In this document: piece after piece, positions 4,360 to 12,210 of the stretch | Layout of the letters: each line of letters begins with the position of its first letter | Position numbering within the stretch: position 1 is the first letter of the stretch | Assembly (NCBI GenBank): GCA_023807065.1 | Contig: JAJJLU010004510.1 | Location: 1 to 12,210, forward strand | Source: Isotricha intestinalis | Lineage: Eukaryota; Ciliophora; Litostomatea; Vestibuliferida; Isotrichidae | DNA length: 12,210 nt | Direction: 5' to 3' | Made by a program: the position numbers and the translations under genes | Notes under the pieces: generated by a model | Database searches by the model: none | The model's input: the letters and a program-made list of their open reading frames with translations, nothing else | Told to the model about the DNA's origin: nothing

Positions 4360-4557
4360 TTATCTTCTTCCATTTCCAAATAAACAAGATTCCAAATTTT
4401 CTCGACATTTTTTTCCACAACTCATTGCTAAAAGATCTGTTTTGGTTAAACATTGATCAACACATCTCAAATATGTATTTTTACATTGATTTTTATATTG
4501 TTCCACTGTAAATACAAATAAAGATAAAAGTGTTAAAAAGAAGAAAATAAATTTCAT
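4360..4557 (-). CDS. Small secreted six-cysteine protein, copy 1 (probable helical hairpin)
   Basis: This 65-residue protein has a signal peptide (about 1-19, F/L-rich). The mature part has six cysteines spaced C-x6-C-x3-C-x10-C-x3-C-x6-C, which reads the same in both directions. On a helix, the i, i+7, i+11 spacing puts three cysteines on one face. Two such helices joined by the x10 turn would form a hairpin held by three nested disulphides (inference). It ends in GNGRR. It is the first of four tandem minus-strand relatives; this one has the shortest central loop and no M-K-M start. Function is unknown: a secreted defence, signalling or matrix peptide are options. It converges with the WD40 gene across 187 bp of A/T-rich DNA. 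Confidence 0.85.
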   Translation of the reverse strand: MKFIFFFLTLLSLFVFTVEQYKNQCKNTYLRCVDQCLTKTDLLAMSCGKKCRENLESCLFGNGRR

Positions 4558-4906
4558 TTTTTTTTAAGATTTTTTTATTATTTTTTAATTAAGATTTATT
4601 ATAAAATATAATTGATTTATGTTGAAGTTAATTCTTTTTAATCATTGTAATTTTGAAAAAAAAATTTAATTAGTTTTTAAAGATTTTAATTAACTGTCTT
4701 TGTTTTTTTTTTAATTTTTAGTTTTATTAAAATATAATAAGTTAATAAACTTCAAAAAAAAATCTTCTTTTATTATTCTTAAAATTCTTAAAAATTTTTT
4801 CAAAGAAAAAAACAAATAAATAACTTTAAGAATAAAAAAGATTAAAAAAAAATATAAAAAAGGATTTTTAAAATTTTTGTTTTCTAATATTAAAAAAGAA
4901 AAATAT
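4558..4906. other. Gene-free spacer between copies 2 and 1 of the six-Cys family
   Basis: A/T-rich with long T and A runs. The minus-strand open frame across 4711-4983 is Lys/Phe/Ile/Leu-only low-complexity sequence that overlaps copy 2, so I treat it as chance. Nothing else is seen. Confidence 0.5.
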
Positions 4907-5119
4907 TTATCTTCCATTAGCAAAATAGCAATCTTCAAATTTATTATAGCATCCATTAATACATTGTCTTCCTTTTTGTTCATTTGTTATACGTAAACAT
5001 GCAGAAATACAACTTGAATGAGCTCTTTTACATTTTTTTTTTTCTAAAGCTGATGATTGAAAAGTAAATGTAAATAATGATATAATTATTAAGAAAAGAA
5101 AAGTTAAATGCATTTTCAT
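4907..5119 (-). CDS. Small secreted six-cysteine protein, copy 2
   Basis: This 70-residue protein has a strongly hydrophobic signal peptide (1 to about 24). Its six cysteines follow C-x6-C-x3-C-x11-C-x3-C-x6-C, the same fold signature as its neighbours with an 11-residue loop. The C-terminus is YFANGR, close to copy 1's GNGRR and copy 4's YAKGR. ATGs at codons 1 and 3 (MKM) both precede the signal peptide, so the start is uncertain by two residues. Sequence between the cysteines differs greatly from the other copies, so the duplications are old or diverging fast. The plus-strand and overlapping minus-strand frames in this stretch are A/T-rich shadows. Confidence 0.87.
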   Translation of the reverse strand: MKMHLTFLFLIIISLFTFTFQSSALEKKKCKRAHSSCISACLRITNEQKGRQCINGCYNKFEDCYFANGR

Positions 5120-5562
5120 TATTATTTATATAATTAGATTGAATGTTTATTAATTATTAATTTATGAATATTAAAATAAATAATATTTTTAATTTAATAT
5201 TTTTTCAAGAGTGAAAAAAAAGATGAAAATAGTGTTTTTAAAATTCTTTCTTATTCTTAGAATTTATTGTTTACTTGGCAATATAAAAAAAAATTTAATG
5301 TTCATCTGAGAAAATTTCTTAATAAAGTATAAAATATTTATTCAATGTTTTTATTAATAAAAATTAAATAAATTTTTTTTTAATAGATATCTTGAAATAA
5401 ATTATAAAATTAAGGGAATATAATTTTTTAATTAAATTATAAATATAACTTTCATAATCTTTAAAAATTATTCTCTTCATATAATATTAACTTATCAAAT
5501 AAAAAAAAAGAAAAAAGAAACTTTAAAAAAGTTAAAATTTTTTTAATAAAATTTAACATGAT
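5120..5562. other. Gene-free spacer between copies 3 and 2 of the six-Cys family
   Basis: A/T-rich spacer holding the upstream region of copy 2 and the 3' end of copy 3. I see no coding signature, and no fifth six-Cys remnant after checking for the C-x6-C-x3-C pattern. Confidence 0.5.
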
Positions 5563-5772
5563 TTATTTTTTCTTTTCCCATAAACATTTTTCTAAAGTTT
5601 TAAAACATTTAGCAGAACATTTTTTAACTTGAGCATTACTTGATAATTTAATACATTTACCGATGCATTGAGAATATTGAACACCGCATTTAGCTTTTGA
5701 TTTTGTTTGTTCTAAAGTGAAAGATAATAAAGATAAAATGATTAAGAATATTAAACTTAAATTCATTTTCAT
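5563..5772 (-). CDS. Small secreted six-cysteine protein, copy 3
   Basis: This 69-residue protein has a signal peptide (1 to about 21, ending ...SFTLEQ, nearly the same as copies 1 and 4). It has the C-x6-C-x3-C-x11-C-x3-C-x6-C pattern. The mature region is strongly basic (Lys-rich), more so than in the other copies. It is the only copy ending in Lys residues (W-E-K-K-K) rather than Gly-Arg. The MKM start gives two nearby ATG choices. It lies 443 bp from copy 2 and 270 bp from copy 4, both same strand. The family role is unknown; a basic, disulphide-locked helical hairpin could bind membranes, nucleic acid or a receptor (inference). Confidence 0.87.
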   Translation of the reverse strand: MKMNLSLIFLIILSLLSFTLEQTKSKAKCGVQYSQCIGKCIKLSSNAQVKKCSAKCFKTLEKCLWEKKK

Positions 5773-6042
5773 TTTTATTTATTTTTTTTTAATGTTATTG
5801 ATTAATATTACACTTATATATTATATGTTTATATTTATTAGAATATAGAACAATTTAAATTCTCTTTTTCTTCATAGAAATAAAAATATTAAAATTATTT
5901 CAATCAAATAAGTTTAGTTTTCCCTTTTTATTTCTTATAATTGATAATAATATATTAATAATAAAAATAAGTGAATTAAAAAAAATTTAAAAAGAAAGAA
6001 TAAAAGCCATTAATTTTTTCTTTTAATGAAATTTAAAATTAT

Positions 6043-6249
6043 TTATCTTCCTTTAGCATAAATACAAGAAATAAAACCATCATAACATTTTTTTAAACAT
6101 TCTTTACCTTTAGTTTCTTCAGTGTTTTTGAAACAAGGTTTCATACAAGTATTTTGTTCTTTTCTACAAAATTCTCTATCTTGGTATTTATCTTCTAAAG
6201 TAAAACTAAATAAAGATAAAAGTACAAATAATAAGAAAGATAATTTCAT
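6043..6249 (-). CDS. Small secreted six-cysteine protein, copy 4
   Basis: This 68-residue protein has a signal peptide (1-19, LSLFSFTLED at the cleavage region) and the C-x6-C-x3-C-x11-C-x3-C-x6-C signature. It ends in YAKGR. The central loop shares an E-x-K-G-(R/K)-x-C stretch with copy 2 (NEQKGRQC versus TEETKGKEC), so these two may be closest relatives. Upstream on the coding strand is the A-rich leader common in this window. The plus-strand frame over 6122-6400 overlaps this gene, has no Cys or signal logic, and is a shadow. Confidence 0.86.
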   Translation of the reverse strand: MKLSFLLFVLLSLFSFTLEDKYQDREFCRKEQNTCMKPCFKNTEETKGKECLKKCYDGFISCIYAKGR

Positions 6250-6805: not shown

Positions 6806-8347
6806 TTAAACATGATTTTTTTTTTTACTTGAATCGGTATTATAAATATAATTATTTTTAAAAGATTTATAATTATTTTGATTAGATAATAAAAAAGAAT
6901 TACCAAAAGAATTTACATTAGAAATATCAAATTCTTTTCTTAATTTATCCATTTGTTCTAAAATATTTAAAACATGAATAACATTTAATTTCTCATTAAT
7001 GATTTTAATATACCAATAAAATTCTATTTTATCTTGTTTAGATTTTAAAGTCATAGAAAGAGGTAAAAATAATCTTTTAAATTTATTATCAATTTTTTCT
7101 TTATCTTTCATTTTTTCTACAATAAAAGTATTAGATTTCTGAAAAATAGGAAGAATACCTTTATTACTGCAAAATTTACTTTTAACTTGTTTAGGAGTAT
7201 AAAAAGAATTTTTTAAAGCCACATCAGATTGTTCTAAACCACTTTCACTTTTATAATTATTTTTTTTTTTAATTTGATTCTCAATAATAAAGTCTTTAAT
7301 AATTTTCCTATAATAAGAATTTTTAGAATTATAATAATTAATACATTGACATAAGAAAGAAAACACTTTAATAATTCCTCCAATAGTAGCTAAATAATCT
7401 TGAACTTTTAAATAACTTCTATTATAAGTATATAAATTTCCACTATTTAAAATAGTACCAACTAAGAAAGTTCCAGGTATTTCTTCATTATTTAAATTTC
7501 TTAAATCAACATCAATTCTTGCTCTATCAAATTGATGAAATTTTTCTATTGAATTTGAAGGAAAAAATAATCCATTATCTGTTATATATTCTACTTTATT
7601 AAAAAAAAACCATATTTTTTTATATATTGTTCCTGATATACTATATCTATCACTATAAACAAATAAATCTGTTGTTTTTGATAAATTTAAACTATCTATT
7701 GAATATGATAAAAATTTAACATCTAAATAAGAATGAGATAAAAATTTTTCTATTGTTTCTTCTTGATAACATGTATTATTATTTTCTGTACTATTTATAC
7801 ATTTTGAAAGATAAAATGAATAATAACTAAAAAAACTATGATCACCATATATTCCTGTTATTGTTTGATTTGTTAATCTTTCAATTGGACAAAAAAAAGT
7901 TTTTAAATCTGGAATATTATTAAATAAATGTTTATATTCTCCAAAGTGTTTATCAATATTACATTTCTCTATTTTTACTTTTTCATATTTTTGAGTTATT
8001 TCATTTTTTTCTGAATTATATGTTGAATACCAAAAATAAAGAGAAACATTAAATAAATTTTCATTTGGTATTTTATTTGAATAAGAATCACTTAAACGAA
8101 ATAAAAAAGGAAATTTATCAGAATTAAAAATTGTAACATTGCTTTTTTTCTGAATTGATGTTATTATTTTTGCATCTTTTTTATATAGTAATCTATGAAA
8201 AATATAACATGAAAAACCAAAAGAAAAAATTATTGACATTAAACTTAATATTCCTCCTATTATTGTTTTATATATTTTATCTCCATTTTCATTTAATGTT
8301 AAATGAGTTTCATATGATAAATAATCTATTTTTCTTATTAAATTCAT
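6806..8347 (-). CDS. Two-span membrane protein with glycosylated lumenal/extracellular loop
   Basis: This 513-residue protein has a short polar N-terminus (1-27), a first transmembrane segment at about 28-54 and a second at about 317-340. The 262-residue loop between them has four cysteines (129, 153, 183, 193) and several N-glycosylation sequons (N70, N100, N160, N185, N190, N221, N309), so it is probably lumenal or extracellular. The roughly 170-residue C-terminal tail is Lys/Asn/Ser-rich and cytosolic. Both membrane segments open with a similar T-I-(I)-G-G-I motif (28-33 and 321-326). This layout recalls ERV41/ERV46-ERGIC cargo receptors and a large class of uncharacterised ciliate two-span proteins; the similarity is architectural and I cannot assign a family. 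The start is the first Met, preceded by an A-rich leader. It is a single uninterrupted exon. Confidence 0.85.
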   Translation of the reverse strand: MNLIRKIDYLSYETHLTLNENGDKIYKTIIGGILSLMSIIFSFGFSCYIFHRLLYKKDAKIITSIQKKSNVTIFNSDKFPFLFRLSDSYSNKIPNENLFNVSLYFWYSTYNSEKNEITQKYEKVKIEKCNIDKHFGEYKHLFNNIPDLKTFFCPIERLTNQTITGIYGDHSFFSYYSFYLSKCINSTENNNTCYQEETIEKFLSHSYLDVKFLSYSIDSLNLSKTTDLFVYSDRYSISGTIYKKIWFFFNKVEYITDNGLFFPSNSIEKFHQFDRARIDVDLRNLNNEEIPGTFLVGTILNSGNLYTYNRSYLKVQDYLATIGGIIKVFSFLCQCINYYNSKNSYYRKIIKDFIIENQIKKKNNYKSESGLEQSDVALKNSFYTPKQVKSKFCSNKGILPIFQKSNTFIVEKMKDKEKIDNKFKRLFLPLSMTLKSKQDKIEFYWYIKIINEKLNVIHVLNILEQMDKLRKEFDISNVNSFGNSFLLSNQNNYKSFKNNYIYNTDSSKKKNHV

Positions 8348-9093: not shown

Positions 9094-10434
9094 ATGAAGA
9101 AAATGGATGATATATGGGGAAAATATTTTAAAATAGAAACAATAAATTCAAATGCAATTTCAGATATTTATAAAGGGAAAAATAGAACAACAAAAGAATA
9201 TGTTTCTATAAAAGAAATAAAAAAAATAAAAGTGAATGATTCAGATAAATTAATTAAAAATGAAATAGAAATAATAAAACAATTAAATTCAGAAAATACA
9301 TTATTACCAATTGAAACAATAGAATCATTAGATTCATATTTTATTGTTTCAGAAATTTATAATATGACATTAGAAGAATATATTAAAAAAAGAAAAGAAC
9401 CTTTATCAATAGATGAAATAAAAGAAATATTATTTGAATTAAATAAATTATTTAAAAGCATGAATGAAAAAAATATTATTCATGGAAATTTAAATCTTTC
9501 AAATATTTTAATAACAATTAATAAATCAAAATTAGGAAAACTAAATTTTAAAATTGCTAATTTTGGATTAAATGAATTAAAAGAACATAATTTTAATATA
9601 AATCCGGAAACAATTTCTCCTGAAGTTTTAAAAAGAGAAAATATATCTTTAAAAAGTGATATTTGGTCTTTAGGAATAATAATATATTATTTATTATTTA
9701 AAGAATATCCTTTTAATGGAAGTGAATATAATATAATAAATCAAATAGAATCAAATAAAGAATTAAAAAGTATTTATTATAAAGAATTAGATGATTTAAT
9801 TAAAAAAATGTTAAAAAAAGATATTAATGAAAGAATATCTTGGGACAATTATTTTCAACATTCTTTTTTTAATAATAATACTTTAAATCAAAATGATTTT
9901 CCCTTATTTAATTATCAATGTAATATTCATTTTAAAGATTATAATTCTTATTGTTCTAAATGTAAAAAAAATATTTGTGAATCATGTTTAAATGATCATT
10001 CTTCGAATGAACATAAAGTTATTGTTTTTTCTAAAATTGGTTTATCTGAAAATGAAATTAAACAATTTGAAAATTCAATTAAACAAATTGAAAATAATTT
10101 AAAGAAAATTAATGATATTAAAAAACAAATTTGTGATTTTTTAAATCAAATTAAAGTTATCAATGAAAATTCTTCATCTTATGAAAATGATAATGATAAT
10201 AATTATAAATATTATTCTATTCAATGTTTAAATTTAATTAAAGAGAAAATTAAAATTGAAGGAAATATTAATCTTCCTAAAATTCAAAATTTAAAAGTGG
10301 ATAATTCAAAAAAAGAAAATCAAATAATTAATGATTCAAAAGAAAAAGAAACTAAAAAATTTAAAAATAAATTTAAATGGGAATTAAGGTATATTAAAGA
10401 TATTTTAATTTGTGAGAGTAAAATTAAATTTTAA
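9094..10434 (+). CDS. Pseudokinase - B-box - coiled-coil protein; probable first exon of the micro-exon gene
   Basis: Read as one exon, this encodes 446 residues. Residues 8-260 have a protein-kinase fold: beta3 Lys (VSIK, K40), a likely helix-C Glu (E57), the APE-like SPE (175-177), SDIWSLG (188-194) and a late conserved Arg (R247). Key catalytic features are lost. The glycine loop reads INSNAISDIYKG, HRD is HGN (130-132), the catalytic-loop Lys is Asn (N134) and DFG is NFG (156-158). It is therefore probably a pseudokinase. A B-box zinc finger follows with eight ligands: C276, H279, C287, C290, C295, C298, H302, H307. Residues 318-360 look coiled coil. Unspliced, the frame ends at TAA 10432-10434. 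No ATG precedes the micro-exons downstream, so I infer splicing out near 10389-10418 into 10475. M1 and M4 are both possible starts. Confidence 0.85.
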   Translation: MKKMDDIWGKYFKIETINSNAISDIYKGKNRTTKEYVSIKEIKKIKVNDSDKLIKNEIEIIKQLNSENTLLPIETIESLDSYFIVSEIYNMTLEEYIKKRKEPLSIDEIKEILFELNKLFKSMNEKNIIHGNLNLSNILITINKSKLGKLNFKIANFGLNELKEHNFNINPETISPEVLKRENISLKSDIWSLGIIIYYLLFKEYPFNGSEYNIINQIESNKELKSIYYKELDDLIKKMLKKDINERISWDNYFQHSFFNNNTLNQNDFPLFNYQCNIHFKDYNSYCSKCKKNICESCLNDHSSNEHKVIVFSKIGLSENEIKQFENSIKQIENNLKKINDIKKQICDFLNQIKVINENSSSYENDNDNNYKYYSIQCLNLIKEKIKIEGNINLPKIQNLKVDNSKKENQIINDSKEKETKKFKNKFKWELRYIKDILICESKIKF

Positions 10435-10474
10435 TTTCTTTGTGCGGAATTTATTATTATTTATTTATTTATAG
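10414..10474 (+). other. Probable first intron linking the pseudokinase exon to the micro-exons (boundaries uncertain)
   Basis: The micro-exons need a phase-0 entry. Option A: exon 1 ends at TGT 10411-10413 and a 61-nt intron begins with the non-canonical GAGAGT, giving C-K-N-C across the joint. Option B: a canonical 28-nt intron 10389-10416, a one-base exon A at 10417, then a canonical 57-nt intron 10418-10474; AG plus A restores frame as Arg. Using GTAAAA at 10418 alone shifts the frame and meets TGA after about a dozen micro-exons. The 57-61 nt length is about twice the other introns, and no internal AG is present, so no canonical hidden exon fits. Confidence 0.45.
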
Positions 10475-10823
10475 AAAGTATATTTAATTATTAAATATAG
10501 AATGTAGGAATGAAATATAAAAATTTTTTAGTGTGTAATATTTTTGTTTTTATAAAAGCATGTAAAAATATTTTCATTGATAATAGTATGTATTAATTTA
10601 ATAATTAATTGAAAAGCAAGTAAAAAAATATAAATGTTAATTAAAGTTTGTATGAATATCTTTAAAAAAATTTCATTAGTGGGTATAATTATCATATTTA
10701 TTTAAAGAAAGTATTCATAAAAAATATAATTTAAAAGGGAGTATAATTGAAAAAATAATTTAAAGGAAGTAAAAAAAATAAATAAAATAATAGAATGTAT
10801 AATAATAAATAATTAAAAAGGAA
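10475..10823 (+). CDS. Micro-exons 1-13 (one codon each)
   Basis: Each residue is given with the first base of its 3-nt exon: K 10475, N 10501, C 10532, H 10559, Y 10587, Q 10617, F 10647, W 10680, K 10708, G 10738, E 10766, N 10794, E 10821. The introns between them are 23, 28, 24, 25, 27, 27, 30, 25, 27, 25, 25 and 24 nt, all GT...AG. If the first intron removes the bases after TGT 10413, C-K-N-C forms at the start of this block. Confidence 0.83.
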
Positions 10824-12048
10824 GTATAAAATTATAGTTAAAATATAATATTAGCCTGTTAATAATATTTTTATATTTTAAAAAAGGAAGTATAATTATT
10901 AAATAAATAAAAGAAAGTTGAATTTAATATTAATATATTATAGGGGGTAAAATATTCTTAATATAAAAAGAAAGTAAAATAATTTTTTATATATCAAATA
11001 GTGGGTAAACAATTTATTTTGATTTTTAAAGATGGTAAAAATTAAAAAAATTTACTATAATAGGGAGTAAGATTTATTTTAAAATTAAAGTTTGTTAAAA
11101 ATTATTTTAATAATTTACACAGTGGGTAAAAATCTTATTTTTAATTATAATATAGTTGGTAAAAATTAATTAATTGGTATAGCAAGTAAGAATATTGTTA
11201 ATTATAGTATGAAAGATAATTATAATAATTCAATTATAGAAAGCAAGAAAAATTTTATTAATTCCAGTTTGTATTATTTATTCTAAATATAATAGGATGT
11301 AAAATCATTTTTAAATGAAATAAAGTTTGTAAAGAATATTATTTATTTTAGTATGTAAAAATAATTTATTTTATATTATAGGGAGTAAAAATATATATGT
11401 AAATTATAGGAAGAATGATAAAACAATAATTTTTTTAGGATGTAAAATGAAATTATTAATATAGTATGTAAATATTACCATTAAATCATTAAGAAAGTAA
11501 ATAATTAATTTGAAGTTAATATAGGATGTAAGATAATAATATATTAAAATAGATTGTATATATTCATTGATTATTTAGTGTGTATAGATAAAATAATTTT
11601 TTAAGTCAGTATTTAAATAATAATATTAGGATGTATTAACAAAATTAATTTTAGGATATAAGATAATTTTATCTTATTAATTAGGAAGTATAATTAAACA
11701 AATATAATTAATATAGCCTGTATATTAATAAATGTAATTTAGTGTGTATAAAACTTTTAATGTTAGCCAAAAGTAAGAAATAAATTAATTTTAAGTGTGT
11801 AAAATATTATGTGATTTTAGGGAGTATAAAAAAATCATTTATTTATAGTATGTAATTATATAAAAATGAAAAAAAGGGAGTAATTATTAATAAGAAATAA
11901 ATAAAAGACTGATTTTAAAGAACCAAATAAAATAGAAGATGATGGAAACAATGAAGAAATAATAAATAAAGAAGAAGATCATTCAAATATTAATATAGAT
12001 GAATTATCTTCAAAAATTGACCATGATCAATTATGTTATTTATTTTAA
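10475..12048 (+). CDS. Hyper-fragmented coding region: 50 micro-exons (49 of 3 nt, one of 6 nt) plus terminal exon
   Basis: From 10475 to 11879 the sequence is a regular chain of AG-NNN-GT units. The 50 introns between 10478 and 11907 are 21-31 nt (sum 1280, mean 25.6). All end in AG (mostly TAG or AAG, two CAG). 46 begin with GT, 43 of these with GTA, and the others with GA (two), GC and AT. Joined, the 51 codons contain no stop, and the frame runs directly into the terminal exon at 11908, which stays open for 46 codons to TAA at 12046-12048. All introns are phase 0, so skipping any exon deletes whole residues without shifting frame. The peptide has Cys and Trp/Phe/Tyr/Gly/Asp content typical of a folded domain, including a C-P-K-C-G-Y-G knuckle. 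No start codon exists locally; exon 1 is probably the pseudokinase frame at 9094. I know of no described gene with such a run, but cannot search. Confidence 0.85.
10855..11210 (+). CDS. Micro-exons 14-26 (one codon each)
   Basis: Residues with the first base of each exon: P 10855, E 10887, K 10914, G 10944, K 10971, W 11002, M 11032, G 11064, F 11091, W 11123, L 11156, Q 11183, Y 11208. The preceding intron (10824-10854) is 31 nt, the longest of the set. The introns within the block are 29, 24, 27, 24, 28, 27, 29, 24, 29, 30, 24 and 22 nt. Three begin GTT instead of GTA (10858, 10917, 11094). Aromatic residues cluster here (W, F, W, Y), which suggests a hydrophobic core or binding strand. Confidence 0.83.
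11240..11555 (+). CDS. Micro-exons 27-38 (one codon each)
   Basis: Residues with the first base of each exon: K 11240, F 11268, D 11296, F 11326, Y 11352, G 11382, E 11410, D 11439, Y 11465, K 11494, D 11525, I 11553. Three introns in or entering this block lack GT: 11211-11239 (GAAAGA), 11243-11267 (GCAAGA) and 11413-11438 (GAATGA). All still end in AG and still flank 3-nt exons, so the exon grid holds where the donor site is unusual. Confidence 0.8.
11579..11879 (+). CDS. Micro-exons 39-50 (eleven of 3 nt, one of 6 nt)
   Basis: Residues with the first base of each exon: C 11579, S 11606, D 11630, D 11655, E 11685, P 11717, C 11743, then P-K from the 6-nt exon 11767-11772, C 11796, G 11821, Y 11849, G 11877. 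The intron at 11658-11684 begins with ATAAGA instead of GT. C-P-K-C-G-Y-G at 11743-11879 has the look of a zinc-ribbon knuckle. The 6-nt exon could reflect loss of one intron between two codons. Confidence 0.82.
11908..12048 (+). CDS. Terminal exon of the micro-exon gene (acidic tail)
   Basis: After the last 28-nt intron (11880-11907, GT...AG), the frame set by the micro-exons continues from ACT at 11908 for 46 residues to TAA at 12046-12048. It starts T-D-F-K-E-P-N-K-I and ends D-Q-L-C-Y-L-F. It is rich in Glu, Asp and Asn, so it is probably a flexible acidic tail. The abrupt return to a normal exon with codon use like the neighbouring genes is strong support for the phase chosen upstream. 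Of the two other phases across the micro-exons, one stops inside the array and the other reaches TAG about nine codons into this exon. Confidence 0.85.
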   Translation, partial: TDFKEPNKIEDDGNNEEIINKEEDHSNINIDELSSKIDHDQLCYLF

Positions 12049-12210
12049 ATTATATTTAATAAAATTAATTTTAAAAATAATTAATATTAATAAAAGTATT
12101 TTAAAGAAAAAATATTAATCTTTCAAAATTTCTAATTTAATTACTGTTTTTTATACTTTTTTCAAAAGAATAAATAATTAAATTTTCTCAAATAATTGTT
12201 TATGGGGATT
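12049..12210. other. 3' flank of the micro-exon gene
   Basis: A/T-rich sequence after the TAA, containing several AATAAA-like stretches suitable as polyadenylation signals (AATAAA at 12058-12063). No further gene is visible before the edge. Confidence 0.45.

Follow-up and report, generated by a model that had tools for sequence, protein, structure and literature searches.

The window analysed here is an entire contig (JAJJLU010004510.1, 12,210 bp) of the ciliate Isotricha intestinalis, from a 57.3-Mb genome in 2,153 contigs. On its forward strand lies a gene whose long first exon matches the Pfam families Pkinase (6.9e-36) and zf-B_box (2.8e-6), and this exon is followed by an array of 50 tiny exons at positions 10475-11907, of which 49 are 3 nucleotides (nt) long and one is 6 nt long (CCAAAA, 11767-11772). 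The introns of the array, 50 in number, measure 21-31 nt; each of them ends in AG, and 46 start with GT. The initial annotation of this DNA, made from its letters alone, had proposed a gene of single-codon exons split by tiny introns, and its coordinates and counts for the array (exons, introns, AG and GT ends, intron lengths) hold on recount. The joined codons contain no stop and run in frame into a last exon that ends in TAA, as had also been claimed; for the 51 joined codons, 5.3 stops are expected from nucleotide shuffles and 0 are found (P = 0.004). The G+C content of the array is 30% in the exons versus 12.8% in the introns.

We define as a strict chain a succession of GT..AG introns of 20-36 nt linked by exons of exactly 3 nt. 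The longest strict chain in the window region links 26 GT donors, one of which lies just upstream of 10475, while the maximum in 1000 dinucleotide shuffles of positions 10380-12060 is 4. For all other exon lengths from 0 to 12 nt the chain in the window region does not exceed 2, so that 3 nt is by far the best. The four introns lacking a GT donor start with GA (after 11210), GC (after 11242), GA (after 11412) and AT (after 11657); three of these donors are located in the variable loop of the encoded protein and the one with AT in its conserved tail. A homogeneous minisatellite block was sought in the window's own array and none was found. Scans of the window, the contig bearing the array, for Rfam families and tRNA genes gave no match.

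The window gene and its closest relatives

The array is predicted to be the C-terminal part of the kinase/B-box gene upstream, joined to it through a putative 1-nt exon at 10417 (Table 1). This upstream gene, the conserved 1-nt exon, the genome-wide occurrence of the architecture, the exons that are not aligned with codons and the codon minisatellite in the middle of many arrays all go beyond what the initial annotation had described. In six other loci (L011, L016, L022, L023, L024, L025) the 1-nt exon is A or G, always completes an arginine codon and is followed by a Cys exon. The corresponding pattern, a 1-nt exon after W-E-[LI]-AG/, is found at 13 other places in the genome, including two pairs of near copies, and 0 times in the reversed control. 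Among eight genes compared, the window included, a clean 1-nt exon was not seen in L020.

At the place of intron 2 of the window gene, a Cys exon stands in six relatives, preceded by a normal intron and followed by another, and the window head matches the family head CxxCxYxFWKGExxP except for this lost first Cys. The variable region shows no conservation with the relatives in an alignment of eight genes. The sole 6-nt exon of both kinase paralogues is found at the same location (CCAAAA in the window, CCTAAA in L022), where it encodes Pro-Lys inside CPKC, and the last exons can be aligned (TDFKEPNKI in the window, ENSKEPHEI in L016, SGCKEAHDI in L022, KNYKEANKI in L025). The joined codon stretch expected in the transcript of the window gene is CHYQFWKGENEP, and in that of L022 it is CTKCGYQYYNGEEEP. 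The window copy looks like an older member of the family, since the likeness between its introns is gone and the splice sites of one conserved Cys exon have been lost.

Table 1. Predicted parts of the window gene and the adjoining contig end (a slash marks a splice junction)
Feature	Positions	Strand	Content or basis
First exon	9094..10388	+	Protein kinase domain, B-box zinc finger, coiled region; ends ...KFKWEL-AG/
Intron 1, 28 nt, GTATAT...GAG	10389..10416	+	Sequence; donor position same in relatives
1-nt exon (A), completes Arg AG/A	10417..10417	+	A or G at same place in relatives
Intron 2, 57 nt, about twice the usual length, holds degenerate Cys micro-exon	10418..10474	+	Sequence
Relic of first Cys codon (TGT)	10441..10443	+	AG absent before, GC after; position and codon match C1 of family head
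Conserved head, 14 three-nt exons: K N C H Y Q F W K G E N E P	10475..10857	+	
Variable region, 23 three-nt exons: E K G K W M G F W L Q Y K F D F Y G E D Y K D	10887..11527	+	
Conserved tail: I C S D D E P C (PK) C G Y G	11553..11879	+	Matches family tail CxxD..CPxCGxG
Last exon, TDFKEPNKI..., stop TAA	11908..12048	+	Aligns with last exons of relatives
Probable first telomere repeat GGGGATT	12204..12210		Contig end; single repeat only

Recurrence in the genome and conservation of the joined peptide

Searching the genome for the AG-NNN-GT units that the initial annotation had singled out, we find that the architecture recurs. A two-unit pattern gives 68 matches versus 4 in the control, and a three-unit pattern 371 matches (neighbours partly overlapping) versus 2 in the reversed control. 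Strict chains of 6 or more on one strand are present in 29 of 29 records, several of which overlap and 28 of which were picked around matches of the two-unit pattern, a pattern that itself contains 3-nt exons; the reversed and complemented controls hold one chain of 6. The longest run (L031) comprises 108 introns, every one of them GT-AG, and 107 exons that are each exactly 3 nt long. Among parsed internal exons, 1238 of 1297 are 3 nt long, a count obtained with a parser that favours 3 and from loci some of which overlap. A crude scan for introns between long open frames yields ten candidates in this DNA versus one in the reversed control, four of them of 26, 27, 31 and 40 nt and six of 66-120 nt. 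A differing array was observed in L030 (C2033:990-1991), whose triplets (AGG, AGC, AGA) are rich in AG and several of whose units are irregular.

Judged by sequence, the micro-exons, once joined, spell a conserved module resembling a zinc knuckle, WELR-CxxCxYxFWKGExxP ... CxxD..CPxCGxG-K-E, whose two halves enclose a loop that varies in length and sequence. Eight joined domains of this family (family 1) align as WELRCxxCxYxFWKGExxP, a variable part and CxxD..CPxCGxG, with W2, E3, R5, C9, G16, C64 and C73 invariant; the L011 row of the alignment, which was also used as a search query, has about nine out-of-frame loop residues that leave the conserved columns unaffected. In the heads of 11 arrays (10 independent, two being recent copies; the window, without C1, was excluded), C1 (TGC in 3, TGT in 8), C4 (TGT in 11) and G11 (GGA in 8, GGG in 2, GGT in 1) are invariant, and the codons of C1 and G11 vary between loci only synonymously. 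A Cys exon stands at the C1 position in 11 of 11 heads. Introns at equal head positions are 0.639 alike versus 0.611 for mismatched introns; the head peptide is therefore conserved although the introns are not. Because independent loci with unrelated introns give the same conserved peptide, the prediction of single-codon exons split by tiny introns, which the initial annotation had put forward, is strongly supported at the sequence level.

The window array and its relatives are in frame from the first to the last exon, some relatives only with damaged units skipped as longer introns; this skipping by the forced parser makes some peptide residues uncertain, and there is no parse for L020 and L035 while L044 is listed twice. 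A second family carries CFxC...CxxCGYxF after a trypsin-like domain (Pfam Trypsin_2, below the curated cut-off in L014, L015 and L031), and its 3-nt exons straddle codons. Several arrays are in this way not codon-aligned, with exons in phase 2. In the six trypsin-type arrays (L009, L014, L015, L019, L028 and L031, with L014 and L028 near-identical) the phase of the upstream exon predicts a stop-free frame of the array, and in L015, L019 and L031 the predicted frame is the only stop-free one.

The splice sites themselves appear to be under selection. In six family-1 arrays other than that of the window, non-GT donors are rare in head and tail (1 of 104) and more frequent in the variable block (23 of 167; P = 1e-4, with hand-drawn borders and with units of a block that are not independent of one another). 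Donors that are strict around conserved codons and relaxed in the loop are what is expected if a lost donor costs one residue, which would be tolerable in the loop and harmful in the zinc knuckle. As separate observations on donor sequence, AT for GT is the commonest variant (21 of 23 non-GT donors in the variable blocks of L016, L022, L029, L039, L040 and L041), the donor hexamer ATAAGA ranks ninth most common across arrays, and an apparent AT-AG intron, ATTATTATTTAATTTATTAG, is conserved after the DLN codons in the tails of both L034 and L039.

The family-1 module follows a kinase and B-box in the window and in L022 (B-box sub-threshold), a B-box-like protein in L025 (sub-threshold) and L011 (by eye only, with no Pfam match), a trypsin-like domain in L029 (1.4e-8), an ADP-ribosyltransferase-like sequence in L033 (weak match, 0.015) and, elsewhere, a short leader such as MELKIRDINNPIDKWELR. 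Querying public protein data with a trypsin-family protein, we obtained 76 relatives, known from protein sequence alone, of which 52 end in W at the same motif (48 in CW), as expected from an unspliced TG/GTAA donor; P0064 ends in WELR, as expected from an unspliced AG/GTAA donor. Genes of this kind are probably recorded in public data as truncated proteins, as standard gene callers would go no further than the first intron, the point at which these 52 end. Three trypsin-like relatives (P0010, P0020, P0021) contain an uninterrupted zinc-ribbon-like stretch, WKCPICSCKTNLINNPICSICGNN. Comparison of the family-1 alignment with solved structures gave only a marginal match to DnaI (E = 0.18), which was disregarded, and a search of viral and prokaryote contig collections gave no match.

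Arrays of (CCCCAAT)n or (ATTGGGG)n are found at 7 of the 28 contig ends examined. A (CCCCAAT)n telomere and use of the standard genetic code are reported for the litostome Muniziella cunhai (PMC11316547). Telomere and code thus suggest a litostome, the group to which Isotricha belongs, and given telomere repeats at contig ends, the array-bearing DNA is macronuclear. Among 30 contigs tabulated, arrays lie 0.3-3.3 kb from a telomere on 7, the window being included for its single repeat; on 6 they are over 5 kb away from either contig end, and on 17 they lie nearer a contig end at which no telomere is seen and the assembly has probably broken off. On the minus strand the window also carries genes for an HP1-like protein (1350-2165; chromodomain 1.8e-14 and a weak chromo-shadow match), four tandem small Cys-rich secreted-type peptides of 65-70 amino acids (4360-6249; two were scanned, with no Pfam match) and a 513-amino-acid protein with no Pfam match (6806-8347).

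Unit turnover in the variable loop and competing explanations

In many genes the variable part of the array is a minisatellite: a 28-33-nt intron and a 3-nt exon together make up the repeat unit, the introns being near-identical and the triplets different. Of 21 blocks picked by intron similarity, 17 combine an intron identity of 0.81-1.00 with an exon-triplet identity of 0.30-0.46, the level of random draws. In L034, for example, seven 100%-identical 28-nt introns stand beside the codons for E, L, D, W, G, E and E. Units are duplicated together with their exons: L022 contains a 12-unit duplication in which 11 of 12 codons are kept, and L046 a 3-unit repeat present three times over. One case of accelerated codon change is provided by an inverted paralogue pair on contig C1406, in which exons differ at 11 of 89 sites (automatic labels) or 14 of 90 (hand-paired codons) versus 20 of 689 intron sites (P = 3e-4 and 6e-6, respectively); the hand pairing covers 30 codons and omits one leading codon, two additional units that only one copy has, and a single TGG/TTT pair that is ambiguous. 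The codon changes in this pair are 10 nonsynonymous and 1 synonymous.

We estimate at about 80% the probability that the C-terminus of this kinase/B-box gene is encoded with nearly every codon as its own exon, by an intron-defined and probably serial splicing, and that the result is a hypervariable loop carried on modular proteins. A number of results weigh against this reading. Reversed controls reach chains of up to 20 if exon lengths of 1-12 nt are allowed, so that only the 3-nt test is sharp. That 3 nt is the exon length with the longest chain in 40 of 40 loci (L009-L048) is partly selection, as most loci were fetched with 3-nt patterns, which makes run length better evidence than uniformity. 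Exon-order shuffles of the shifted-frame arrays are not significant singly (P 0.06-0.67), the test having little power and being uninformative for L031. Exons are not faster than introns in the pair L033/L038 (1/63 versus 3/604), triplets are as alike as introns in the L025 block, and introns are less uniform in L010, L027 and L030. The window copy may itself be partly inactive, as one Cys exon is lost and four of its donors are not GT, including one in the conserved tail. Joined micro-exons are absent from all 76 trypsin-like relatives, which thus support the donor and not the splicing, and two protein searches with the family-1 domain, limited by length and word filters, gave no relative of the domain and no joined product among the 59 candidates examined in one and the best 8000 candidates in the other. 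Finally, the recognition role of the loop and the order of splicing are features that we infer.

A rival explanation is a neutral by-product, in which tandem duplication of an intron and a 3-nt exon yields units that are spliced and conserved, the extra residues being tolerated as a flexible linker with no role in diversity. The unit duplications of L022 and L046 are of this kind, and some loops are simple D/E/K runs (L025) or coiled-coil-looking (L031, L026). However, triplets are randomised where introns remain 81-100% alike (17 of 21 blocks), the exons of the C1406 pair outpace its introns with mostly nonsynonymous changes, and the loops of L017, L039 and the window are by eye rich in W, Y and G, unlike a neutral linker; we consider this explanation possible but doubtful. 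We judge it unlikely, and more so than neutral duplication, that copies of one short mobile intron inserted themselves between the codons of an originally uninterrupted coding exon. Introner elements are near-identical intron copies at many sites, and the exact 28-nt intron GTAADATAATATTATTAATTAATTATAG is present in 67 copies on 16 contigs (control 0); the seven identical introns of L034, between mostly different codons, are also in line with such an invasion. Yet 62 of these 67 share their contig with at least one further copy, many of them spaced at 31 bp, and insertion precisely every 3 nt is hard to produce. As far as seen, the copies here are mostly tandem with 3-nt spacing in few gene families and not, like introners, scattered through ordinary genes, and duplications take their codons with them (L022, L046). 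No contiguous ancestor was found in genome or protein data; these are weak negatives, the search for a contiguous domain copy in the same genome having used a made-up 62-amino-acid consensus without a positive control.

Two further explanations deny that the spacers are introns. Ciliates delete tiny internal eliminated sequences (IESs) from DNA in nuclear development, and mitochondrial byps, which ribosomes skip, are similar in size. Spacers of either type are very improbable here, for they have GT..AG ends with donors constrained around conserved codons, and the presence of several arrays on telomere-bearing contigs, which is already processed macronuclear DNA, led us to reject IESs. Hardly credible at all is a non-coding AT-rich minisatellite that mimics splice sites: many arrays are tandem repeats of one unit, but codons vary synonymously and the frame continues from the exons upstream and into those downstream, and this explanation was rejected because the joined codons are conserved as a peptide between loci with unrelated introns.

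A proposed splicing model, known systems and significance

The GT..AG ends of the spacers and the reading frame restored by taking them out fit U2-type spliceosomal introns, and for a gene spliced codon by codon we propose that the ordinary spliceosome would remove the tiny GT-AG introns in intron-definition mode. With 3 nt between a 3' splice site and the 5' site beside it, the two cannot be bound at the same time, from which we infer that removal is intron-defined and probably serial, most simply proceeding onward from the long first exon at the 5' side. Since all units share the same small exon length, duplication, deletion or skipping of a unit would add or remove one amino acid and leave the frame unchanged, and identical introns would let the loop evolve residue by residue. 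The likely role of the loop would be hypervariable recognition or binding, joined to different catalytic or signalling parts. A more speculative extension, which we hold only tentatively and regard as improbable on present evidence, is an antibody-like diversity system at single-amino-acid resolution in a unicellular eukaryote. Here the identical tiny introns would serve both as recombination handles and as optional splice units, and a loop on a zinc scaffold would be lengthened, shortened and recoded by single residues through turnover of DNA units and by skipping of frame-neutral exons, the modules being carried on kinases, B-box proteins, trypsin-like proteases and possibly ADP-ribosyltransferases.

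Lamprey variable lymphocyte receptors (VLRs) and the repeats of fungal NOD-like receptors (NLRs) combine a constant effector part with a repeat-encoded hypervariable part, and here too constant parts are joined to a repeat-encoded hypervariable part; the variable unit here is, however, a single codon, and unit homology lies in the introns and not in protein repeats. In schistosome micro-exon genes (MEGs), as presented in the accessible part of the source, the coding region is mostly in very small symmetrical exons, and splicing yields few-residue protein variants (PMC4350168). The coding stretch described here likewise consists mostly of very small symmetrical exons, but nearly all of them are one codon long, with runs to 107 exons and a conserved 1-nt exon; between them stand introns of, for the most part, 20-36 nt that often form near-identical repeats, and the genes encode fusions of kinase, B-box or trypsin-like type. 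Plants and animals also splice exons of 1-3 nt, namely 1-nt microexons in plant APC11 and VPS55 (PMC8831610) and a 3-nt exon in Drosophila homothorax (PMC7392893), but those described in the accessible parts of these papers are isolated or paired, with no long runs among them. Introns of equal size range are known from the ciliates Nyctotherus (21-29 nt) and Paramecium (20-33 nt), where they interrupt ordinary genes, and the accessible part of that report does not mention single-codon arrays (PMC2633312). Searched by title and abstract opening, with subscription papers and outside preprints beyond its scope, the open literature yielded no description of long runs of single-codon exons.

Should RNA confirm the splicing, we would know of no protein genes more fragmented than these, with runs of more than 100 single-codon exons and with conserved 1-nt exons. 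Such genes would test the limits of the spliceosome, a 3' splice site and the next 5' splice site being 3 nt apart dozens of times in succession, and would offer a natural system for studying the order and fidelity of splicing. Their minisatellite form suggests a route by which loops may evolve residue by residue without frameshifts.

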